A DNA stretch of 64,000 nt, taken from Tritrichomonas musculus. Taxonomy: Eukaryota; Parabasalia; Tritrichomonadida; Tritrichomonadidae. Positions 7,426 through 59,714 of this stretch are shown piece by piece (the stretch's first letter is position 1; the number at the start of each line of letters is the position of its first letter). The translations under genes and the position numbers were made by a program. The notes under the pieces are model-generated. The model saw nothing but the letters and a program-made list of their open reading frames with translations. It was not told the origin of the DNA and made no database searches. The DNA is taken from positions 806,001 to 870,000 of the forward strand of contig JAPFFF010000009.1 of assembly GCA_039105265.1 (NCBI GenBank), given 5' to 3'.

Positions 7426-10400
7426 ATGACATACCTCTTTGATATATCAGTTGACCTCTATTCGACTGCAAGAACGGAAGCAAGAAAAGAGTATAAGCAA
7501 AGGGTGAAAGACGTAAGAGACAAACGAAAGTTCAAGAAATATTTGAAAGAATTCATGACCAAGGCTAAGAAAGAAATATCATTTGACATAGATATAGGTG
7601 ATGATGAAGATAAGAGACTTGCTTTCACTGAAACATTAAGACAATTACACAAAGAGAATAAGAAGAATATAGTAGTAAAAAGCGAATCATTAGGTGGTGA
7701 GGAATACAAATGGTTTACACTTTCCAAGGCACGAAGATTAGATTCAACAATAGGACATATATCAGGGACAATAGACTTGAATGATGACTGTTCAGACAAT
7801 AATCCTTGGGTTGGCAATGTATTCATCCCTGCAAAATACCAGTTGCTCTTCATTAAAAATAGAAAGAGAGGCAAGCAAACATCATTCACTATTAATAAAG
7901 AAGATAATAAAGGTAAGTTGTATGAAGAAGAAGTTGAAGTCGACGAAGATTATCGCGATAATCCAGAAGGTGGATTCTTCCCTTATATTAATCTTTCTGA
8001 TTTAGACTTATCACAGTACCAAATATTCAAGACAGTTGATAAGAAGAACTATAAAGACAATTGTTTGGTATATGCTTGCATTCAGTCTGGAGTATTCACT
8101 GATGAGGAAATTAATTATTTACGCTTTATGGTCAAGACTAGGTTAATCCCCAATAACTTGATATACGATATAGCCAAGCAGTTTAAATGCCATTTTGTTG
8201 TAAGAAGGATTAATGAGGGAAAAGATGTAGTAAACCAACAAGAAATAAAAATAGATACAAGAAAGAGACCATGGGCCAAAGAGTTTGACCGAATTGTTGA
8301 CTTATTACTGTACAAGAACCATTACATGATATATAAACCCCTAAATGGTGTTAAACCTATGGCAATATTTCGCAAGCTATTTAAAGAAGGAAAGTTCAGA
8401 GAAATAAAGTCCTGTGAAATGAATATCTTAGCAACGAATGAATACAACTCTCACTTAGCGGATTATACAGACCTTGAATATGATCCTGAATTGTGCTGTA
8501 AACTAATAGATTCATCAGAGACGAAAAAGGAGAGAGAGTGGAGTAGGATTTATTATTCTGATTTTGAAACTAATACCACTGTATCACCCCATATGCCTTA
8601 TCTAAATATTACTGTGTACAGGACCAAAGAGTTAATTCATAAAATGATATTTGATGGAACCAATATCGCTGACAGATTACTAAAGTCATTGGAGAACAAT
8701 TCTCTCATTTACTTCCATAACCTTAAATATGATGCTTGTTTCTTTATAAATACTCCTGGATGGGATGTACAAATAACAGAGAGAAGTGGAACGATTCTGC
8801 AAATAGTCATGACAAAGTATAAACCTAACAAGAGATTAACTTTCCGCAATAGCTACTCTATCATCCCTGCTGCATTAGCTTCATTTGGTAAGATGTTTCA
8901 GTTACCAGTTCATAAAGAGGTAATGGCATATAAAATATATACTGAAAGGAACATAAATAGGAAAACTGTCTCTGCGCTTGAATTTCAACTACAGTATTAC
9001 ATGGAGAACCAAGACAAGAAACCATTGACACAGATAAAACAAGACTGGAAGCAATTAATAGATAATGCAAAAGCTTGTGGTGCATATGTTGGAGGAGCTA
9101 TTGATATTATGAAGTATGCTATCTATTATTGCAAACTGGATTGTATAGTATTAATGAAGGGAGTAGAGAAATTTAATAGAGATCTGGTAGAAGTATTTAA
9201 GCAGACGAAGACAAAGATGCTTGATGTCCATAACTTTATATCCATTAGCTCTATTGGCTACTATTATGCATATAAATTTGGTTGCTTTGATGGGTGTTAT
9301 CAACTTAGTGGTAAACCACAAAACTTCATTCAGAGATGCGTTAGTGGAGGTAGAACAATGACAGCTAATAATGAAAAGCAATATATAGAGGAAAGGATAC
9401 AAGATTTTGATGCAGTCAGTTTATATCCTAGTGCAATGAGTATTATGTCTGGTGTACCTAAAGGAGTGCCAGAAGTAATTCGCCTGGAGGCCTCAGGTAC
9501 TAATCGTGCGGGCCCATCGGATATGTTTACGAAAGAATTATTAGATTTTGATCAGTTCTTCATTGAAATCAATATCAAGAAGATCAAGTGCAAGGCTGAC
9601 AAACCATATAAATTTGGTCAAATATTTAGTAGGAATGATCAAGGGTCAAAAATATTTAACAACAATCCTATCAACAATTATTACATAGACAAGAGAGCTT
9701 TTATGGACTTGATGGAGTTTTATGATTTCGATTATGAGTTTATTAGAGGATATTACTTTGACAAAGGATTCAACAACAAGATTAATGTATTTATAGAGAA
9801 ATTGTTCAATCTAAGAAGGAGATACCAAGATGCTAACAATCCATTGCAACAAACCATTAAACTACTTCTTAATTCCATTTACGGAAAATCTATCCTAAAG
9901 GCAACAACAACTGAAACTAAATGCATACCAAAAGATAAAGCCATTAAATATATATGGAAGAACTATAATTACATAACAGAGGTGATAGAGAACAAGTCAA
10001 TTGATAATGTATATGTTAAGAAGGTTAAACCAATAAACAGTCATTTTAATTTACCTCATTTTGGTGCTAGTGTCTTGTCATGGAGCAAACATTTAATGAA
10101 TAGGGTAATGAGTACAGCTGAGCAAAATGGAATAGACATCTACTATACTGATACAGATAGTGTACACGTTAGAGAAATAGATGTACCAAGGATAGCTGAG
10201 GTGTTCAAGAAAAAATATGGGAAGGAGTTGATTGGTAAGAAGATGACACAGTTTCATTGTGACTTTGATTCGTTTAATGGTGCTGTTGGTAGTGTTCATT
10301 CAAGGAAATTAATAGCATTAGGAAAGAAAAGTTACTTAGATATTCTAGTTGATGAAAAAGGTAATGAAGGCTATCACATTAGATTAAAAGGCTTGCCCAG

Positions 10401-10578
10401 ACAATGTATATTAAACAAGTGTAAACGAATGGGTATTACAGTAGAGGAGTTATATGAAAGGATGTATCACGGGGAGGAAATAACATTTAATTTATTAGAT
10501 GGTGCTAACTGTTTTAGGAAATCATCTTCTTACCAACAAATTAATATTCCTGTATTTGAACGAAGAATCAAATTCTAA
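7426..10578 (+). CDS. polB: Protein-primed family B DNA polymerase (MavA PolB), 1050 aa
   Basis: This enzyme replicates the element. Visible motifs: Exo I DFET near residue 380, Exo II FHNLKYDA near 432, Exo III YCKLDC near 569, polymerase motif A DAVSLYPSAM near 662, motif B LLLNSIYGKS near 815 and motif C YTDTDS near 908; all catalytic acids are present. The N-terminal 370 residues contain FFPY...DLSQYQIF, then NCLVYA near 212 and a later YKNHYM. This Cys/His pair looks like an OTU/papain-type cysteine-protease-like module and is shared with the mini-Maverick gene at 22719. The ATG at 7426 follows a T-rich tract. The gene is convergent with 10970-10689, with a hairpin between them. Confidence 0.95.
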   Translation: MTYLFDISVDLYSTARTEARKEYKQRVKDVRDKRKFKKYLKEFMTKAKKEISFDIDIGDDEDKRLAFTETLRQLHKENKKNIVVKSESLGGEEYKWFTLSKARRLDSTIGHISGTIDLNDDCSDNNPWVGNVFIPAKYQLLFIKNRKRGKQTSFTINKEDNKGKLYEEEVEVDEDYRDNPEGGFFPYINLSDLDLSQYQIFKTVDKKNYKDNCLVYACIQSGVFTDEEINYLRFMVKTRLIPNNLIYDIAKQFKCHFVVRRINEGKDVVNQQEIKIDTRKRPWAKEFDRIVDLLLYKNHYMIYKPLNGVKPMAIFRKLFKEGKFREIKSCEMNILATNEYNSHLADYTDLEYDPELCCKLIDSSETKKEREWSRIYYSDFETNTTVSPHMPYLNITVYRTKELIHKMIFDGTNIADRLLKSLENNSLIYFHNLKYDACFFINTPGWDVQITERSGTILQIVMTKYKPNKRLTFRNSYSIIPAALASFGKMFQLPVHKEVMAYKIYTERNINRKTVSALEFQLQYYMENQDKKPLTQIKQDWKQLIDNAKACGAYVGGAIDIMKYAIYYCKLDCIVLMKGVEKFNRDLVEVFKQTKTKMLDVHNFISISSIGYYYAYKFGCFDGCYQLSGKPQNFIQRCVSGGRTMTANNEKQYIEERIQDFDAVSLYPSAMSIMSGVPKGVPEVIRLEASGTNRAGPSDMFTKELLDFDQFFIEINIKKIKCKADKPYKFGQIFSRNDQGSKIFNNNPINNYYIDKRAFMDLMEFYDFDYEFIRGYYFDKGFNNKINVFIEKLFNLRRRYQDANNPLQQTIKLLLNSIYGKSILKATTTETKCIPKDKAIKYIWKNYNYITEVIENKSIDNVYVKKVKPINSHFNLPHFGASVLSWSKHLMNRVMSTAEQNGIDIYYTDTDSVHVREIDVPRIAEVFKKKYGKELIGKKMTQFHCDFDSFNGAVGSVHSRKLIALGKKSYLDILVDEKGNEGYHIRLKGLPRQCILNKCKRMGITVEELYERMYHGEEITFNLLDGANCFRKSSSYQQINIPVFERRIKF

Positions 10579-18594: not shown

Positions 18595-19947
18595 TTAAAT
18601 GTAAAGCATCTTCTTAAATGGTAAGAATTGCATTTCAATGACAAATGATTCATTGTTTGGTACCAGAACAGGAATATTATTATGACGCCCTGAATATAAT
18701 TCTATCCAAAATCGTTGATCAGTTGAGTTCAGTTTGAAGTACTTGATAGGACTGAAGTATATTTGACTATTACCTAAATAATATTTATTTGATTGCTCAG
18801 CTATTGATGAATATACTTTACACGAATGTCTATCCCAAATATTTTTAAAATCTAATCTTCTGCACCATTTATCATTAAATTTATATGGATTATTTTGATA
18901 TGGTTTATCTCCTATATTAAATAAATCAGCAAAATCAGTATTCTTATAGTTAGAATCTGTTCTATCACTTTCTCTAAAATTAATCTTGAAATCAACATAG
19001 TATAGACCTAATTCGACAAAATCATTTTCCCCTGGTATTGGTTTTGGTGTAGGTGTTGGTGTAGGTGTTGGTGTAGGTGTTGGTGTTGGTGTAGGTTCAT
19101 AATCGGTTATCTCTGGTGCCATATATATAAATGATGGTTTGGAAATTGTATTCTTTTCTAAGTTCTGTGGTGAAAAAATGGTTTCGACAAATGCCTTCTT
19201 TTCATAATCATAATATCCATCCATTTGAAAATCGCTTCGGCTTCTATCAATCTTATCTTGGTGAAAGAGGGGAATAATCTTTTCTTTATGCTCTTTAAAC
19301 CAATTATCGATTTTTGTTTGATATTCTTGATACTTTTCTCGGGCATTAAATAGAAATGTTAACACATCTTTCACAAAATAAAAACGTCCAAATAATGGAT
19401 TGATATATTCTTTAGTGATAGCTTTATATTGTTCATATATTGTTTTTAGGTCATCAGTTGTTATTTTATATTCATTTTTATTAATTTCATTAAATTCCTC
19501 AAATTTTTTATCTAATTGGTTATTTATATCATCAAATATTTTTCTCATATCATTATCCGTCGATAACCAAGATATAACATGGATTGTTAATTCTATTTTT
19601 GATTTTTTTGGTAATTTGTCATATATTTCGTCATTATTTATTTCTTTATCTTTATCCTCTGCCTTTTCTTCCTTTGCCTTTTCTTCTTTTGCCTTTAGTT
19701 CATCAAAGTCCTTCCTCAAATATTTTCGAATGCTAAAATCAAATTCTAATTTTCTTCTTCGAGCCATTAAATAAATACTTCTCACGCCTACAATTGATTC
19801 CCCTCTATTCGAAGTACACCATTCTTGAGGAAAATTAAAGTAATATCGATTAGGTTTGCTTGGGTCTTGTTCTCCATCTTCTAAAAAGTAAGCATATTCA
19901 ATTGGTATAGGAGTTTGTTCTTCTGTCGGATTAAGTGTTGGATACAT
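18595..19947 (-). CDS. Putative minor capsid protein with coiled-coil insert and Pro-Thr tract, 450 aa
   Basis: The ATG at 19947 is chosen because the longer frame has only a TTG start. The N-terminus has NRYYFNFPQEW, then SIVGVRSIYLMARRRKLEFD. The end has YFKLNSTDQRFWIELYSGRH and ESFVIEMQFLPF. Both flanks resemble strands of one jelly-roll domain, and the small MavB protein at 35745 shares the plan. Between them lie a Lys/Glu coiled coil (about 80-220) and a Pro-Thr repeat encoded by a GGTGTA/GGTGTT microsatellite. Penton-like role is an inference. It is the first gene of the minus-strand run, next to the non-coding right arm. Confidence 0.5.
   Translation of the reverse strand: MYPTLNPTEEQTPIPIEYAYFLEDGEQDPSKPNRYYFNFPQEWCTSNRGESIVGVRSIYLMARRRKLEFDFSIRKYLRKDFDELKAKEEKAKEEKAEDKDKEINNDEIYDKLPKKSKIELTIHVISWLSTDNDMRKIFDDINNQLDKKFEEFNEINKNEYKITTDDLKTIYEQYKAITKEYINPLFGRFYFVKDVLTFLFNAREKYQEYQTKIDNWFKEHKEKIIPLFHQDKIDRSRSDFQMDGYYDYEKKAFVETIFSPQNLEKNTISKPSFIYMAPEITDYEPTPTPTPTPTPTPTPTPKPIPGENDFVELGLYYVDFKINFRESDRTDSNYKNTDFADLFNIGDKPYQNNPYKFNDKWCRRLDFKNIWDRHSCKVYSSIAEQSNKYYLGNSQIYFSPIKYFKLNSTDQRFWIELYSGRHNNIPVLVPNNESFVIEMQFLPFKKMLYI
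19043..19096. repeat. GGTGTA/GGTGTT microsatellite inside a coding region
   Basis: About nine 6-bp units in the minor-capsid-like gene; read on the minus strand they give alternating Thr-Pro dipeptides. The unit is a multiple of three, so copy-number changes keep the reading frame. It probably acts as a flexible linker between the insert and the last part of the jelly-roll-like domain. Confidence 0.85.
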
Positions 19948-21787: not shown

Positions 21788-22467
21788 ATGAAGCAATAAT
21801 CTTTTTAGGATGTGAAGTTAAAATGATTTTTTTATTCAAAAAAACGTATAAAATTTGGCGCTTAACGTATAAAATTTTGCGCTTTTTCGGAAAAACGTAC
21901 ATTTTTTGCGCATTTTTGGAAATACGTTATAAGATTTTTATTCACAAATTGGAGATATGAAATAAGTATTAACGGATTTGGTAACTGAACTTTTTAAATT
22001 AAAATACAAATTTCGTAAAAGACATCGCCACTTTTTCATTAAAAAAAAAGAAAGACATTATATTTTTAGCATTAACTTTTATAAAATAGTAAATAGGAAA
22101 GAATTAAAATAGTAATTTATTTTTAGAACAAGAAAGTAGTACATATGGAAATTCAAAAGTCAAGAGTTTACACTGGAATCTTTGCTTTTGATTTACAAAT
22201 CTGCGACTGTAGTTCGTTAACAAGTTGATTTCTATTTGTAAATAGGTATCTTATATTGCATTTCAGATTGTTTTTTGTATATAAAAGGCTACGTTTTGTA
22301 AATTTGTTTAATGAATGATAATCTATGGCTCGGGCTTTTAATTTGATGACTAGAGTTCATTAATTTGTGGTTGAAAATAGCTGATCTACATTATATACTC
22401 GCATGCAGCTGTATTTCGAGATTGCATAATTTGATTAATAAATATGTAGTTGGAAACCAGTAGTAGG
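21788..22467. other. Intergenic host DNA left of the mini-Maverick
   Basis: No gene is seen. At 21840-21930 there is a short degenerate tandem array in which ACGTATAAAATTTGGCGC-type words recur three to four times (AACGTATAAAATTTTGCGC, AAACGTACATTTTTTGCGC). The rest is AT-rich. The last five bases, 22463-22467 (GTAGG), are the left copy of the mini-Maverick target duplication. Confidence 0.6.
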
Positions 22468-22722
22468 AGCTAGCTATATAATGTGAGTTAGTTTACGTCA
22501 CCTTAAAAATGATACGAAAATGGTCGTTTTGTGGGTTTGGAAATATATAATGACTTCTGGAACTGAAGATTAAGAACAGATTTGAAGATCCGGAGTTGAT
22601 TTATAAGTTGAAGCTCAAGAGAGTTCTTAAATGATTCGGAAATGAATCACGAGGAAATTTAAAAAATATACATTAATGATGACGTAGTGAAATAATTTTT
22701 TAATTTACACGAAAGGTGATGG
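22468..22722 (+). repeat. Left TIR of the mini-Maverick, carrying a promoter and start codon
   Basis: It is the reverse complement of 25544-25798 over 255 bp; the two arms diverge right after GATGG. The inner end holds TTTACACGAAAGGTGATGG, and the ATG (22719) is inside the repeat, so this arm supplies promoter, 5' leader and start codon to the gene that runs inward. Function as a promoter is inferred from position. Confidence 0.9.
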
Positions 22723-24635
22723 ATACATTTAAAGTACCATTAGAGGACAAAACAACGGACGAGTTAGTGGACCTTTTTAATTTGCTAAAAGGTTTTCATG
22801 AATCGACTGAAGAGTATTTAGATTATATCTCATCAGAAGAAGAATTAAGAGAACTATTGATTTATGATATAGCAGATGATTTGTTAGATAAAAATTATGA
22901 TGGAGACAACGATTATACAGTAATGTATTGGTATGCGAAAGGTTTGAAGAATTATGAAGAAGCTATCAATGACTTGATGAACATAGGCTATCAGGATGAG
23001 ATTAAGCATATGAAGATTCCTCATGTTCCAAAACATATGAAACCATTGCAAAGATATGTCGATAGCGATGAATATAAACGTAGACAGATGAAGAAAGAAG
23101 ATGATAAATTCTTTAAGAAATTCGATAGAGATAATTAAAAAGTGTATAAAGATACAGATAAGAGTGATCGTAAGCTAAGGTTTGATAGAGAATTACACAA
23201 GCGTCCATTAGAGTTTACGAAAGGGGTAAAGGATTTGCATAAACAGTTCACGGATTTCAATAAGAGTATCGTTAATAAACAGTTAGAAGCAAACGAATTT
23301 GTTTCAGATTTGAATCCAAGAGAGTTGAATCGTGAAAGGCTGATATCGTTTGAGGAATGGAAATCATATAATAATAATGATAAGCAAGATGAATTGATTG
23401 AGGAAATCATTGAAAGAATTGAGTTATCTCCTACCAATTGGGAGATTAATTTCGAAAAATTAAATGAATATGGAAGGAAGAAGTCAACACCTTTTTTGAT
23501 TGATTCATTGGAGAACACAGTGGGTAGATCATTGAATGCAAGTAAGAAATATGATTTTAGATATACAGTTATCACTAGAAATAATAAGAACGATGGTGAA
23601 GTTAGAGATTATCGTACGATACCATTAAAAGGGAACACGTTTCATGATCTCATTGAACGATTAAGGAGTGGTGGTTTATCATTTGATCTTGATGGAGAGA
23701 AATCAGCTGTTGAACTCTTCTATTCATCGAATGAAGTTGAAATGTTACAATGGTCAATGTTCACGTCAGTATCATTGAGTGAACTTAAAGGTGCAACTGG
23801 TAAGTGTTATCATGATCGAGGCGGTAAGTTCTTTCCATATTGGAATACAACATATATTGATTTAAGTGAATACCAGATATTCTCACCAAACGATAGTTTT
23901 TTTGAGAGACGACAATCAGTTGAAGTTCCATGTGTGTTATGGGCATTGAAAGGTTTGATATCAGATGTCGACTTACATAAAGTACAATTGAGATTGATGA
24001 ATGAGAATCCACGTACTAGAACACAATCAATAATATCCAATTACCATAACTCTAAAGATCTCGACTACCTATATAACGAATTTCATATTCATTGCAGGTT
24101 ACATTACTATGATGAATATACAACGAGACCTCAGTTCAGAATCATTGAGCGTGGAGTCAAAGAAGAAGATGCTGAGTATAACATTGAACTAGCTATCTAT
24201 AGAGAACACTATTTCAAATACAAAATGACTGATTACACTAGATATTTCATTAAGAATTACAATGATTTGAAGTTCGTTGATGATGGTAATAGAGTGGTCG
24301 GTAAACGAAAATCAGGAACATGGCAAAGAGATAAACGAGTAACATATTATTTGAACTCATTAGAATTGGTCATTGAGATGATGAATAATGGTATGTTCAG
24401 TGAAATGAATTATCAAGATCTATATTGTTTAACTATAGACATAGATGACGACACACCAATATGCAATATACCTTTATACTTTGATGATGAAGATGAAAGA
24501 GACTTTAGAATTAGTTCCAACCAAATTCAATCACAAAACGAAGAGCACGTAATGTTCATGAATGAAGATGAACTTGAAGACATAAATACTGATTCAGAGA
24601 ATTTTCTAAGTGGAACAGATTCAGAAAGTGATTAA
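22719..24635 (+). pseudogene. Solo N-terminal PolB module gene with one in-frame TAA
   Basis: One reading frame of 639 codons, interrupted by a single TAA at 23136-23138. The first part (139 aa, acidic) and the second continue in the same frame with no ATG near the restart. The second part aligns with the N-terminal 380 residues of the MavA PolB: FFPYWNTTYIDLSEYQIF, then VPCVLWALKG, FHIH, IYREHYFKYK and, near the end, YCLTIDIDDDTPICNIPLYF at the place of the Exo I DFET motif. It then ends in an acidic Ser/Asp tail, with no exonuclease or polymerase domain. The conserved Cys and His suggest an OTU-like module. Whether the stop is read through or makes two proteins is unknown. Confidence 0.75.
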
Positions 24636-24676
24636 TAAAAATATATCATTTCATATATACCGAAAAGTGATTAATC

Positions 24677-25084
24677 TTATTTTTCATTTAAAGTTGTCCG
24701 TTCCGAATGCAAATTGATTACATCTATTATTTGACACTCTTTGCTTGGTCCGTTCTGCTTGGAATTTGTTGTTTCATTTGTTGTGTAAAGTTTGCTCCCC
24801 TGGTTGAATTCCCCTTTTTGCTTAGAACATTTACAAGTAATGAATTGCATCTTACCATCACGCTTAACGAATTTATGTCCATCAGCTGGTATATCTTCAT
24901 TCAATTCTCGTGTATTCAAAGTATTACATTCCTTGTTCCTTCTAATGAATTTCCGAACTTCTCCATAATCACCATTATTAATTAACTCTCTTAATATATT
25001 CTTCAAGTTATTCGTGCTTGTTTCTTTATAATCTACCCTATTGTCTAATTCATCTGAATCTGTATAGAATCCATCCATTTGCAT
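24677..25084 (-). CDS. Small CN-x-x-NT-x-ELN family protein, 135 aa
   Basis: The family signature is visible at residues 23-80: two helices (NNLKNILRELINNGDYGEVR), RKFIRRNKECNTLNTRELNE, then GHKFVKRDGKMQFITCKCSK. It is shared with the adjacent broken gene at 25282-25547 and with the MavC gene at 59442-59714. The C-terminal 50 residues are polar and unique. No known domain; possible Cys-based metal site (C-K-C). It is convergent with the PolB-module gene, 41 bp from its stop. Occurrence in two different elements suggests a useful function in Maverick biology, which I cannot name. Confidence 0.6.
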   Translation of the reverse strand: MQMDGFYTDSDELDNRVDYKETSTNNLKNILRELINNGDYGEVRKFIRRNKECNTLNTRELNEDIPADGHKFVKRDGKMQFITCKCSKQKGEFNQGSKLYTTNETTNSKQNGPSKECQIIDVINLHSERTTLNEK

Positions 25085-25281
25085 TCACGTTAAAAATATA
25101 TATTAATGATTCACGATTGATTCATTCATGAAACATCAACGAATACATTATGTATTTACTTTCAATCCATCCATATATATTAATGATTACACTCTGTTTT
25201 TGCATAATTTATCAGCCATTTCTGATAATTCTTAATTAGTTTCATTAATAATTAACTCAAATCAATCATCATTGATCACAT

Positions 25282-25547
25282 TCAATTCAAAAGCATTTGA
25301 TATTCTCGTTTAACTGGTTTATAATAGTACTTCTCAAACACAATGTTATCATGTCTTCTCATGAATTTATAACCATCTTCATTAACTCCAAATTATTATT
25401 CAACGCTCTCGCATTCAATCTATGGCATAGTTCATTATACTTCAACAGCTTCCTCAACATCTTATAATCTCTTTCTCTCAACAAATCATCTATAACATTC
25501 ATCAATGCATCAATATCATCTATCTCATAAAGTCTCTCAGCAGCCAT
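25282..25547 (-). pseudogene. Second small CN-x-x-NT-x-ELN family gene, frameshifted
   Basis: The ATG at 25547 lies inside the right TIR. The frame gives the N-terminal half of the family (DIDALMNVIDDLLRERDY, then LRKLLKYNELCHRLNARALN) and then stops at 25359. The typical continuation (GYKFMRRHDNIVFE and a basic tail, stop at 25282) is found in another frame, starting near 25385. A one-base loss around 25381-25392 explains it. It is the mirror of the left gene: same TIR promoter and leader, different coding sequence behind it. Confidence 0.65.
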
Positions 25548-25798
25548 CACCTTTCGTGTAAATTAAAAAATTATTTCACTACGTCATCATTAATGTATAT
25601 TTTTTAAATTTCCTCGTGATTCATTTCCGAATCATTTAAGAACTCTCTTGAGCTTCAACTTATAAATCAACTCCGGATCTTCAAATCTGTTCTTAATCTT
25701 CAGTTCCAGAAGTCATTATATATTTCCAAACCCACAAAACGACCATTTTCGTATCATTTTTAAGGTGACGTAAACTAACTCACATTATATAGCTAGCT
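25544..25798 (-). repeat. Right TIR of the mini-Maverick
   Basis: Exact counterpart of 22468-22722 in inverted orientation. It ends ...TATATAGCTAGCT at 25798 and is followed directly by the GTAGG target duplication. It contains the start codon of the 25547 gene at its inner end. Confidence 0.9.
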
Positions 25799-25803
25799 GT
25801 AGG

Positions 25804-30910: not shown

Positions 30911-31325
30911 AGAGAGAGTACTATAGACCAGCTGAACGGGCAGATAATTGTAACCCTTTTTGTACCCCCTGATGTTTTAAGTTGACGGTCGCCACTTGAA
31001 CTTGACCAAAAATAACAACAACGAAAAATAGAACTTTCAAAAATTTTTTATTTTTTTATCAGCAATTTATAATGTCAAACCAAGCCGAACAATTAAGCAC
31101 CCTCATTAATAGAATCAACAAAAAGCTAAAAGGTTGGAGACCTGCATTAAAATACATCTATGATAATGATGATGTTGTTGACGGAGTACTAAAAGAGATA
31201 AATCACTTTATTGAACAACTAAAGAAATTCAACGGAGGACCTATTGAATTAATTGCTGAACTTGAAGAACTCATTTATTAGACAATTCATTTAATTCATT
31301 CTCAAGCTGATGAACTTTATTTTTG
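30911..31325 (+). repeat. Left TIR of MavB (415 bp)
   Basis: It starts AGAGAGAGTACTATAG and is complementary to 53549-53961. The first about 160 bp are non-coding. Then comes a T tract with TTTTTTTATCAGC, then a 69-codon gene wholly inside the repeat. Its inner end also covers the last 18 codons of the convergent 31498-31271 gene. Confidence 0.95.
31072..31281 (+). CDS. TIR-encoded 69-aa helical protein, left copy
   Basis: I do not recognise the family. Helical and charged: QAEQLSTLINRINKKLKGWR, a DNDDVVDG turn, and LKEINHFIEQLKKFNGGPIE followed by ELEELIY. It is duplicated at 53593-53802 with a single residue difference (Ile/Leu) because it lies in the inverted repeat. The ATG follows TTTTTTTATCAGCAATTTATA; TTTTTTATCAGC also precedes the KilA-N gene start at 44340, suggesting a common promoter word. 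A gene placed in both TIRs and read inward could act early or at the ends (inference). Confidence 0.6.
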   Translation: MSNQAEQLSTLINRINKKLKGWRPALKYIYDNDDVVDGVLKEINHFIEQLKKFNGGPIELIAELEELIY

Positions 31326-54824: not shown

Positions 54825-56120
54825 ACCATTCGATTATCTATTTTTATTTTATGAAGCAATCAACAACATCAACATCTATCAACATTATTAGCATCAACAA
54901 CAACATCAGCATTTATCATTTATCATCAGCATCAGCATCAACAACATTAACCAACAGGCATCATCTATCAACATTATTAATATCAACAACAACAACAACA
55001 ACAACAGCATCTATCAACATTATTTAGCATCAACAACAACATTAATTATTAATATTATCAACAACATTAATCATCAACAACATCTATCATTAACCAACAG
55101 CATCATCCATCACCATTTATCATCAGAATCATCACCATTTATCATTTACTATCAACATTATTTAGCATCAACAACAACATTTATTATTAATATCATCAAC
55201 AACATTAATCATCGACAACAACATTAATATCATCAACATTAATATTAACATTATTTAGCATCAACAACAACATTTATTATTAATATCATCATCATTTACT
55301 ATCAACAACAGAAATAACATCATTTATCAACAACAACAGCAGCAGTATTAACATTATTTAGCATCAACCAAGAGCATCTATCAACCAACATTATTAATAT
55401 CATCATCAACCAACAGCATCATTTACTATCAACAACATTAACCAACAGCATCTATCATTAACAACAATATTAACATTATTTAACATCAACCAACACCATC
55501 ATCTATCAACACCATCACATATCATCAACATCAGTATTAACATTATTAATATCATTCATCAACAACAGCACCAACATCAACTATCAACAGCATCAACAAC
55601 AACTATCAACTATCAACAACAACAACAGCATCTATCATTAACATTATTAATATTATTTAGTATTATCAACAACAACATTAACCAACAACAACACCATCTA
55701 TTAACATCTATCAACAACAGCATTTATCATTATCAACAGTATTAACATCACCATCTATCAACAGCATTTACTATTAACATCTATCATTAACAGCATCTAT
55801 CGACAACATCAACATCAACACCATCTATTAACATTATTAATATCAACAATAACATTATTAATATTATCATCAACAACGGCATTAATAACATCAGTATTAA
55901 CATTATTTAGCATCATTATCAACGGCATCATTATCAACGGCATCATATATCAACAACAACAACAGCATCATCTATCAACATCAATAACAACAGCATCAAC
56001 CAACAACATCAATAACAACAGTAGTATTAACAACAACATCAACGACGGCATCTCTTATTAATATTATTAATATCAACAACAGTATCATTTATCATTTATC
56101 AACAACAGCCAAAAACAATG
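54825..56120. repeat. CAACAT/ATCAAC low-complexity tract of MavC
   Basis: About 1.3 kb of irregular trinucleotide repeats (CAACAACATCAACATC, ATTATTTAGCATCAACAACA and variants). There is no fixed period, no long open frame and strong strand asymmetry (C but very little G on the plus strand). It directly follows the helicase stop. No gene is seen. Confidence 0.85.
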
Positions 56121-59100
56121 TTAAAGTTTAGTTCTCAACACCAATCTATTCGTTCAAATGCAAAAGTAACAATTAATATTTAAATCAAGAAAGTTCAAAA
56201 GTGACAAATCAACATTCCAGTCAATCAGTAATTAGTAATCAACAACAATCGAATCATTAACAACATCCACGTATTTTTCATTTAAAGGTGAAGAGGTGAA
56301 TTGTCACCCGATAAACACCACCTTCTTGTTTTCATTCCCTTCAATTACAACATTAAATAATATTCACAACAAGGTCGTTTCAATCAATTCATTCTATTCA
56401 TTCATTCATTTCTAAATAAGAGGCCAATTTATGTCAATTGCATTAAGGTTAACGGGTTAGATCTAACCCAATTTTTCTAACCTTATTCCAGTCAATTCAT
56501 TTATTCATTCCAGTCAATTCGTTTCATTCAATACCAATAATTAGATTCAATTCACAACAAGAAAGAGTGGGACAATTCATTCTATTCGTTCAATTCATTT
56601 ATTCAATTCATTCTATTCGTTCAATTCATTCATTAAATTCATTCTATTCGTTCAATTCATTCATTAAATTCATTCATTCAATTCGTCCAATAATATTAAA
56701 CCCAGCAATATTGTTCATTCAATAACATCATTCAATCCGTTCACTCGTTTCATTTCGTTCATTCTATTCGTTCACTCAATTCGTTTCATTCATTCGTTCA
56801 AAACCAGCACTCAATTTATATCAATTGCATTAAGGTGAAGAGCACGATGGTTAAATCTAACTCTATTTTTCTAACCTTATTGCTTTCAATTCATTTATTC
56901 ATTTCAGTCAATTCATTTAATTTCTAAATAATCAAATAAGAGGCCAAATGCATTAACTAGAAATATCGATAATTAGGTTCAATACTATCATTCAATTCGT
57001 TCAATAACACTTGCAATAGCATTCACAAAAAGGTCAATTCGTTTACTCAATTCGTTTCATTCAATACCAATAATTAGATTCAATTCACAACAAGAAAGAA
57101 TGGGACATTTCATTTATTCATTTAATTCGTTCACTCGTTTCACTCGTTTCATTCAATTTGTTCAATCCGTTCACTCGTTTCATTCAATTCCATTTCTAAA
57201 TACTAAGGTGAATTGTATTAAAGGTGAACAGGCCTCGCAGCGAGTGCTCGGCACGAGGGTGAATTGTCACTATATTTTTGTCACCTCTGCTTTCATTTAA
57301 ACAACCACTATATGCTCCTAGAAAATGGAGTGAACAGATGACCAATTCAAACAATTTCTAAATAATCAAATAAGAGGCCAATGAGAAATAACATTATTCA
57401 TTCATTCAATAGCAATTGCAATAGCATTCAATTCATTTCTAAATAATCAAATTCTAAGGCCAAATAAGAGGTCAAATGCATTCGTTCGTTTAATTCGTTC
57501 TATTCAATCTATTCGTTCGTTCAAAACCAGCACTCAATTTATGTAAAATGCATTAAGGTTAACAGGTTAGATCTAACCTTATTTTTCTAACCTTTATTGC
57601 TTCCGGTAAATTCATTTATATATTCTCAATAAGGTCATTTCAGTTCGTTTAATAGTGTAGTTAATTTACTTAATACTATCATTCATTCAATTCATTATAT
57701 ACTATCATTCAATTCGTTCAATTCCATTCAATTCGTTTAATAGTATAGTTAATTCGTTCAATATATTCGACATTATTCATTCATTCAAATAAGAGGTCAA
57801 ATGCATTCGTTCGGTCGTTCAATTCAGTTCATTCATTCACAACATGAAACAGAAAATGGAGTGAACAGATTCATTTCGTTCAATTCACAACAGTCAATAC
57901 TATCATTCAATTCGTTTAATAACGCTTACAATAATATTCACAACAAGGTCACTCGTTTCATTCAATAACATCATTCTATTCGTTCAATAACACTTATAAT
58001 AATATCACAAAAAGGTCAATTCGTTCTATTCATTTCAAACAATTCTATTCGTTCGTTCATTCAATTCATTTCACACAACATTCCATTCAATTTGTTCAAT
58101 TCATTCAATAACATTATTCATTTATTCATTTCAAACAACATTTCATTCGTTCGTTTAATTTATTCAACTCTCAACAGCAACATTCGTTCGTTTAATTCAT
58201 TCAATTTGTTCAATAACACTTATAACAATATCACAACAAGGCAGTTTCAATACTATCGTTCCATTCGTTTCATTCGTTCAATCTATTCAGTACTATCATT
58301 CAATTCATTCCATTCAATTTGTTCAATAAGGTCATTTCAGTTCATTAATTTGCTTAATACTATCATTCGTTCGTTCAAAACAAGCACTCAATTTATGTAA
58401 AATGCATTAACGAGAAATAACATTATTCATTCATTCCAGTCAATTCGATTCTATTCATTTCAAACATCATTCGTTCATTTGTTAGTATAGTTAATTCCAT
58501 TCATTCAATTCATTCGTTCAATCTATTCAATACTATCATTCAATTCGTTCAATCTATTTGTTCGTTCAAAACCAGCACTCAATTTATGTAAAATGCATTA
58601 AAGGTTAGCAGGTTAGATTTAACCCTATTTTTCTAACCTTATTGCTTCCAGCCAATTCAGTTCGTTTAATAGTGTAGTTAATTTGTTCAATAACACTTAC
58701 AATAATATCACAACAAGAAAGAGTGGGACAATTCAACATCATTTATTCAATTCCATTTCTAAATACTAAGGTGAATTGTATTAAAGGTGAGCAGGTGAAT
58801 TGTCACTATATTTTTGTCACCTCTACTTTCGATCAACAGCAACAACATGAAACAGAGAAATATAGACCAATCAATTCCATTCAATTCATTCACTCAATTT
58901 ATTCATTCAATTCCAGTCAATTCATTCAATTTGTTCAATAAGGTCATTTCAGTTCATTAATTTGCTTAATACTATCATTCAATTCGATTCTATTCAATTT
59001 GTTTATTCGTTTCATTCGTTCAATTCATTCGATTTGTTCAATAACACTTATAATAATTCATGTCAAATACAGGTGACGAAAATCGGGTGAGAATTCACCT

Positions 59101-59441
59101 CTTCACCCTGACTATATTTTTCAAATAAGAGGCCAATTCATTCAACATTATCATTCATTTCATTCATTCGTTCAAGTACTAAGGTTAATTCACGTTCAAA
59201 CCGAGACCTTAATAATCAATAATGCTTCTGTTCCTTGTTCTTAGATAATGTAATGAACAGGTCAAATACAGGCCAAATGAGAGACCAATTAACTACAACA
59301 AGAAAGATGCAATAATGTTCCTTGTTCCTAGATGTTCCCGGATAAATCGTTTCCTAAAAAATGGAGCGGACAGATGACAGATGACAGAACATAAACATCT
59401 TTTTTTAATATTATTCCAGCGAAGACAAAAATAATATATTA
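56121..59441. repeat. ATTCATTCAATTCGTTCA low-complexity arm with dispersed palindromes
   Basis: About 3.3 kb of TTCATTCAATTCGTT-type repeats on the plus strand. Interspersed are recurring blocks: AAACCAGCACTCAATTTATG, TCTAAATAAGAGGCCAA, ACAACAAGAAAGAGTGGGAC and two hairpin types. Type 1 (GGTTA-A-C-[AG]-GGTTAGATCTAACC...TTTTTCTAACC) occurs at 56447, 57556 and 58604, with a variant near 56850. Type 2 (GGTGAATTGT...GGTGAATTGTCAC...TTTTTGTCACC) occurs at 57206 and 58769, with relatives at 56285 and 59071. No credible gene. Confidence 0.8.
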
Positions 59442-59714
59442 TTAGATCAACTCATTCATAACTTCATTTAATACACCAAGGCACTTATCATTAACTGAAT
59501 CCTTCTTGTCTACGATTAATATTAAATTACCATTCCTTTTAGTAAACTTGTATCCAGTTATCTTAATCTGATTATTAAGTTCCTTAGTATTAAATTGATT
59601 ACAGTAAGAATTATTCTTTATAAGCTTCCTTAATGGTTTAATCTCATCTCTCTTAGCTAGCTCACTTATGAAGTTAAACAAAATTTCTTTTTCACTAATA
59701 TCATAAATATTCAT
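59442..59714 (-). CDS. Small CN-x-x-NT-x-ELN family protein of MavC, 90 aa
   Basis: ILFNFISELAKRDEIKPLRK, then LIKNNSYCNQFNTKELNNQI, then GYKFTKRNGNLILIV: the same order of two helices, the Cys-Asn/NT-EL signature and the G-x-KF-x-[KR]-R-x-G-x strand pair as the mini-Maverick genes at 24677 and 25282. The C-terminal helix is unique. Function unknown. It links the mini-Maverick with MavC by gene content. The ATG follows a T-rich tract. Confidence 0.62.
   Translation of the reverse strand: MNIYDISEKEILFNFISELAKRDEIKPLRKLIKNNSYCNQFNTKELNNQIKITGYKFTKRNGNLILIVDKKDSVNDKCLGVLNEVMNELI

Follow-up and report, generated by a model that had tools for sequence, protein, structure and literature searches.

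Can a mobile element persist with only the priming end of a polymerase gene? The question is raised by a 3331-bp element bounded by terminal inverted repeats (TIRs), at positions 22468-25798 of a 64,000-nucleotide stretch of the genome of Tritrichomonas musculus, a protist commensal of the mouse gut (the window; GenBank assembly GCA_039105265.1, contig JAPFFF010000009.1, positions 806,001 to 870,000). This mini-element inserts with a 5-bp duplication of its target and encodes a free-standing N-terminal part of a Maverick protein-primed DNA polymerase (pPolB) together with small paralogous proteins, one gene starting from each TIR. We regard it, with moderate confidence, as one of a family of Maverick satellites whose members supply the replication primer themselves while polymerase and integrase are borrowed; we infer that a helper is used.

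The ends are those of an inserted unit. The left and right TIRs are complementary at 255/255 nucleotides (100%), more than the near-identity given in the original prediction, which was made from the letters of the window. The predicted 5-bp duplication is present as GTAGG at each flank, and such agreement is reached in 0.22% of random draws of 5-mers from the window. The left outer gene has its ATG at 22719-22721, the TIR ending at 22722, and the right outer gene at 25547-25545, the TIR edge being 25544. Both genes thus open with ATGG, the four bases that close the TIR, and their sequences diverge beyond, so that the predicted common first codon with different bodies is found. A single promoter within the shared TIR sequence would probably serve both, as we infer. 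When the flanks were joined, with the element and one copy of the duplication removed, and used as a query, 25 matches were obtained, of which two are the flanks in the window itself, and 19 of the 25 extend well over the junction (query position 145), as judged by their ranges. In one of the repeat copies (L073) the sequence runs unbroken through the insertion site. The element is therefore inserted in a dispersed host repeat, at least one other copy of which is empty, and the match ranges suggest that the remaining junction-crossing copies are also empty. The empty site sought by the original prediction exists, but with a single GCAGG where the window has GTAGG. A chance inverted repeat is ruled out by the identity of the TIRs, the duplication and the empty site.

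ORF A, the left outer gene, can be aligned to the N-terminal portion of Maverick pPolBs and ends before the exonuclease motif. The pattern of that motif is found in 27 of 30 polymerase rows of the alignment and in 0 of 8 rows without a polymerase (solo rows). In the accessible text of a study of polintons, the N-terminal region of pPolB is dissected into a terminal protein (TP) followed by a viral OTU protease with catalytic Cys and His; the TP has a Ser or Tyr between helix 2 and strand 4 and is likened to the LF/PAD domain of Y-family polymerases, and the OTU is proposed to cut the TP off the Maverick polymerase (PMC11071308). The predicted structure of the TP domain of ORF A has four strands and two helices in the order b-a-b-b-a-b, and position 335, between helix 2 and strand 4, is Tyr or Ser in 8/8 solo and 28/30 polymerase rows. 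The predicted catalytic pair, Cys405 and His497, is kept in 38/38 rows, and the Asp two residues ahead of the catalytic Cys is lost in 8/8 solo rows. From homology it is strongly suggested that the ORF A product is a stand-alone TP, a putative primer of DNA synthesis at linear ends, joined to an OTU-type protease that would release it. The original prediction of a solo PolB N-terminal module with two small genes is thereby refined. A structure comparison of the TP domain gave no solved terminal protein among its matches, and scans of IMG/VR with one solo protein and with a six-sequence alignment found no relative. The features are collected in Table 1.

Table 1. Features of the mini-element and its flanks (positions in the window).
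Feature	Position	Strand	Remarks
Left target-site duplication copy, GTAGG	22463..22467	.	joined flanks match element-free copies of the host repeat
Left TIR, 255 bp	22468..22722	+	begins AGCTAGCTATATAATGTGAGT, closes with the ORF A start codon; 10 genome matches
ORF A, first part	22719..23138	+	139 codons, in-frame TAA 23136-23138; Maverick pPolB N-terminal region, mostly helical in the model
ORF A, second part	23139..24635	+	same frame, first ATG 23742, stop 24633-24635; TP and OTU domains, acidic tail, polymerase absent
Predicted TP domain	23331..23798	+	residues 205-360; b-a-b-b-a-b topology; Tyr/Ser at 335, candidate DNA-linking Tyr335 at 23721-23723
Predicted viral-OTU-like cysteine protease	23826..24443	+	about residues 370-575; Cys405 23931-23933, His497 24207-24209; structure matches to OTU proteases
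ORF B	24677..25084	-	135 codons (154 in C11 and C50); paralogous to ORF C
ORF C	25359..25547	-	62 codons (88 in C11 and C50); start lies within the final 4 bases of the right TIR; large gene family
Right TIR, 255 bp	25544..25798	-	same sequence as left TIR
Right target-site duplication copy, GTAGG	25799..25803	.	

The TIR is multicopy and has related elements, as had been anticipated. In a search of the genome (193.4 Mb, 746 contigs), 10/10 scored candidates matched, at 7 loci, with both ends at C9, C11 and C50 and one end at C47, C10, C1 and C8. The C11 copy (3398 bp, duplication AGAAA) and the C50 copy (3392 bp, duplication AATAA) have ORF A as an open frame of 638 codons. Some copies elsewhere are truncated or interrupted, the C8 copy (L013 3244-6228) by an insert whose 995-codon frame matches the hAT C-terminal dimerisation domain (PF05699, E 1.4e-4) just over the cut-off. 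In the copies seen, ORF A moves with the TIRs, and a host gene was rejected on this ground.

The arrangement is not confined to one TIR. An element of a sister family (family 3; C2:1536100-1539300, L070) is 3063 bp long, with a TIR of about 204 bp and the duplication TTAAT, and its TIR is unrelated in sequence to that of the window save for the end motif. Its 103-aa small gene and its 497-aa TP-OTU gene each begin ATGGAACA within the TIR, so the TIR-edge position of the start codons is seen again in another family whose TIR is different. In family 2 (C94, L067; 3744 bp) the TIR is 284 bp and the ATG lies 113 bp inside it; no target duplication was found for L067. A second family-2 TIR pair, C8:2087165/2091420 (4.3 kb), has a small gene near one end and a TP-OTU gene reading from the other. 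The mini-elements thus span 3.1-4.3 kb, and 5-bp duplications were found at five of six insertions examined, one of the five requiring composite boundaries. The latter is a C14 relative of family 3 (L069), where the duplication AATTT appears only when a further 271 and 78 bp are included; two other boundaries tried gave none. This composite (L069 116-3837) has a 271-bp sequence beginning AGTAGTGAAC inverted on both sides of the family-3 element and, outside it on the right, 78 bp of family-3 TIR end, the duplication enclosing the whole. The same 271-bp sequence terminates a 5.28-kb pair, C64:375791/381070. The two ends of C8:760908-789571, 28.7 kb apart, also carry the family-3 TIR (99% over 198 bp), each together with codons 1-29 of the small gene. 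This locus, known from its ends only, may be a Maverick that has a mini-element TIR, or a mini-element with a large nested insert.

Internally deleted transposons are commonplace, and the frames could be relics without a role in an ordinary Maverick that retained the 5' portion of the polymerase gene. The decay of the window copy, the truncation or interruption of others and the existence of other short pairs (3.6-7.9 kb) with a Maverick-type TIR are all to be expected of relics. Trees built on residues 205-575, with solo rows of broken frame left out, are not. In the 38-row tree a branch with a support of 100 separates the eight solo rows from the full polymerases, and the split is the same (100/100, the bootstrap being rough) in a 37-row tree from which the longest branch was removed. 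Three of the eight (P0001, C11 and C50) are near-identical, leaving six lineages behind the split; the tree is unrooted, and one origin of the solo rows is its simplest reading. Outside the window family, long frames of about 490-650 codons have been kept at 38-53% identity to the first sequence. The ratio dN/dS is below 1: 0.45 for C11 against C50, 0.22 for C2 against C14 (from four differences only) and 0.16-0.36 across families, the last values being rough because synonymous sites are close to saturation. For the decayed window copy it is 0.49 and 0.93. The invariant Cys and His, the end of the protein before the exonuclease motif and the recurrence of the two-gene architecture also argue against relics, which we consider unlikely. 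Judged from these sequences, the solo TP-OTU lineage is old and under selection.

A link to Mavericks is also suggested by the ends. The mini-elements begin AGTAGTATAGAATTGTGAGT (family 3), AGTAGTATACTAAAGTGAGT (family 2) and AGCTAGCTATATAATGTGAGT (window family). Within the C10 mini copy lies a 37.6-kb insert, which made a 5-bp duplication, begins AGTAGTATAGGATAGTGGGT and agrees with the family-3 end at 17 of 20 terminal bp. Near its far end is a gene related (39.5% over 129 aa, E 7e-32) to the window gene 18598-19947. That gene belongs to the window's first Maverick (PF03175 polymerase, 7426-10578) and adjoins an integrase-like gene (rve 1.6e-5, below the cut-off), next to which is an A32-type ATPase. 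The 37.6-kb insert is taken for a Maverick because it encodes this relative of the gene beside the integrase. The score of alignment to the end of the insert was reached by 1/5000 shuffles for family 3, 0/5000 for family 2, 28/5000 for the window family and 278/5000 for the C13 copy. When the comparison was made with the terminus of the window's second Maverick, 100-375/5000 shuffles reached the scores of the three mini families, and that terminus is therefore not clearly like theirs. The 20-base end pattern occurs with at most one mismatch at 26 places, versus 9 for a reversed control. The TIR of the insert matches at least 40 places (40 scored of 148 candidates), one of which, C4:1547781, has a 1709-codon polymerase frame at a distance of about 10 kb. 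Inverted pairs of this TIR lie 19-28.5 kb apart (C11:478970/498097, C9:717771/746271, C17:1721339/1748362), in one case 44 kb (C1), and, in short pairs, 3.6, 3.8, 5.9 and 7.9 kb apart. Judged by the ends, this type thus occurs at both Maverick-sized and mini spacing. The short pairs (C9:4330163-4333791, C10:5036372-5040217, C7:1164176-1170028 and C9:1215660-1223548) have no ORF A match among the matches listed and are taken as other mini-Mavericks, known from their ends only. In the window, 30915-53959 is a Maverick-size element with 411-bp TIRs that are 100% identical and hold a short frame (ATG at 31072, TAG at 31280); the element begins AGAGTACTATAG at its ends, and TAGGCT lies just outside each.

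The TIRs within one copy differ at 0 (window), 0 (C11) and 1 (C50) positions, and those of different copies among these three at 2-8. Since differences within a copy should otherwise be at least as many as those between copies, the TIRs have been homogenised. In protein-primed linear replicons one end can template the other, and the identity within copies would fit replication of this kind; gene conversion is another possible source. Mavericks are thought to replicate by protein priming, a reaction that to our knowledge has never been demonstrated for them. In the scheme we propose, the polymerase of a helper Maverick would prime once, its own TP then being cut off by the OTU. The free TP of the satellite would recharge the spent polymerase core, which would copy the satellite starting at the TIR ends; the helper integrase would then insert the copy. 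Keeping a free TP would be useful because the TP of a Maverick is joined in cis to its polymerase and is lost after priming if the OTU cuts. Pairing of the ends during replication would keep both TIRs identical and let them extend inward up to the start codons, further extension overwriting one gene. TIR growth halted there would leave the two genes with a common promoter region, leader and first codon. That the free TP and OTU define a satellite class recharging spent Maverick polymerases, with specificity from the parasite and catalysis from the host element, and perhaps checking the Mavericks, is put forward tentatively.

Some results weigh against satellites of this kind. The whole 255-bp TIR was found in the genome on no confirmed full-length Maverick, so the predicted non-autonomous Maverick derivative is upheld by the terminal motif, the 5-bp duplication and the polymerase homology, but not by a full-length relative with the same TIR. 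The window ORF A, moreover, is broken by TAA at 23136-23138. The protein M9Y10_044534 of the T. musculus annotation (580 aa) is encoded by the element and omits the stretch of the window frame that holds this stop, which we read as an intron made by the gene predictor. The coding capacity said to be retained has thus decayed in the window copy and, unlike in a miniature inverted-repeat transposable element (MITE), is present in the open frames of C11 and C50, with dN/dS <1.

Alternatively, the free TP and OTU might be a decoy, blocking the replication of Mavericks or changing ubiquitin signalling in the host, and might be kept for protecting the host or the element. The OTU catalytic pair has been kept though there is no polymerase to be released from, and many polymerase-bearing frames are present in the same genome. 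The elements multiply and their TIRs are homogenised, which points to replication rather than interference alone, and we give such a role only a small chance. It is still less probable that the transposon is self-sufficient, with ORF A and/or the small proteins a recombinase of a novel type and the polymerase likeness a reuse of domains: the element does spread with no known transposase seen, and its small-gene family is very large and often in inverted pairs, but ORF A matches pPolB across both the TP and OTU regions, Pfam shows no nuclease domain, and the insertion signature and ends resemble those of the Maverick-type insert. Pfam searches with the genes of the element gave no transposase, integrase, polymerase, ATPase or capsid, all listed matches being below the curated cut-offs, and no further ATG frame of more than 100 codons was found inside the window, C11 and C50 copies. 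An unrelated transposon with a transposase of its own, the alternative named in the original prediction, was rejected, no such transposase having been found.

Returning to the satellite reading, adenovirus and PRD1 encode their polymerase in the same genome as their terminal protein, while the mini-element has none. In those viruses, as in the mini-element, the terminal protein gene is separate from the polymerase; in adenovirus, however, the OTU is inactive and lies within the polymerase, whereas the mini OTU stays on the terminal protein (PMC11071308, accessible text). With the polinton pPolB of the same text the mini-element shares the order TP then OTU, the Cys and His and the Ser/Tyr between helix 2 and strand 4, but its TP-OTU is a separate gene without exonuclease and polymerase, has an acidic tail, and has its Asp replaced (PMC11071308). 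With the Mavericks/Polintons of parabasalids it shares long TIRs, AG-type ends, the 5-bp duplication and the pPolB N-terminal module; it differs in having no detected polymerase domain, integrase, ATPase or capsid gene and in its size, 3.1-4.3 kb where 15-30 kb is given for protist elements in the accessible text of PMC10120064. MITEs and non-autonomous DNA transposons are also short, TIR-bounded and apparently mobilised in trans, but the mini-element keeps selected genes, with both starts built into the TIRs. Yeast cytoplasmic linear plasmids are protein-primed linear replicons with TIRs, some dependent on others. The dependent ones keep a full polymerase of their own; the mini-element, by contrast, keeps the primer part alone and sits in the chromosome. 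Virophages and their giant viruses offer a model for mini-elements that perhaps restrain Mavericks.

Mavericks make up about one third of the T. vaginalis genome and 34% of that of T. foetus (PMC10120064, accessible text). The T. musculus genome is reported as 193.49 Mbp, with repeats masked over 42.67% of it, and the main text of that report has no occurrence of Maverick, polinton, transposon or transposable (PMC11978803). The accessible texts of PMC10120064, PMC11978803 and PMC6431247 mention no such mini-element, and a partial literature search covering few subscription papers found no description of an element keeping only the priming protein and protease. We call a separate, selected gene for these two alone new among non-autonomous Mavericks. 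The keeping of TP-OTU in several selected families is evolutionary evidence for a module that an element must own to be replicated, and the mini-element offers a compact eukaryotic system in which transposition by protein priming can be tested. If the satellite reading is true, there is a satellite layer on the virus-like transposons that fill much of trichomonad genomes.

ORF B, ORF C, the family-3 103-aa gene and the window gene 59454-59714 form one protein family (BLAST E 7e-10 to 1e-19), with at least 150 matches in the genome (150 scored of 426 candidates). The middle small gene of the window has 64 gap positions against C11 and likewise against C50. ORF C has one candidate in the protein database, 95% identical and without a name; that the small products bind DNA or the origin is a guess. 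The relative at 59454-59714 (minus strand) lies outside recognised mini-elements and adjoins a long run of short AT-rich direct repeats (about 55000-59170). Divergent pairs of small genes are frequent, with starts about 1-1.2 kb apart (e.g. C8:350440/352122, C2:6160383/6162062 and C16:958663/960350), and convergent pairs also occur (e.g. C8:2597788/2599536); these are perhaps further TIR-type elements built around the small gene.

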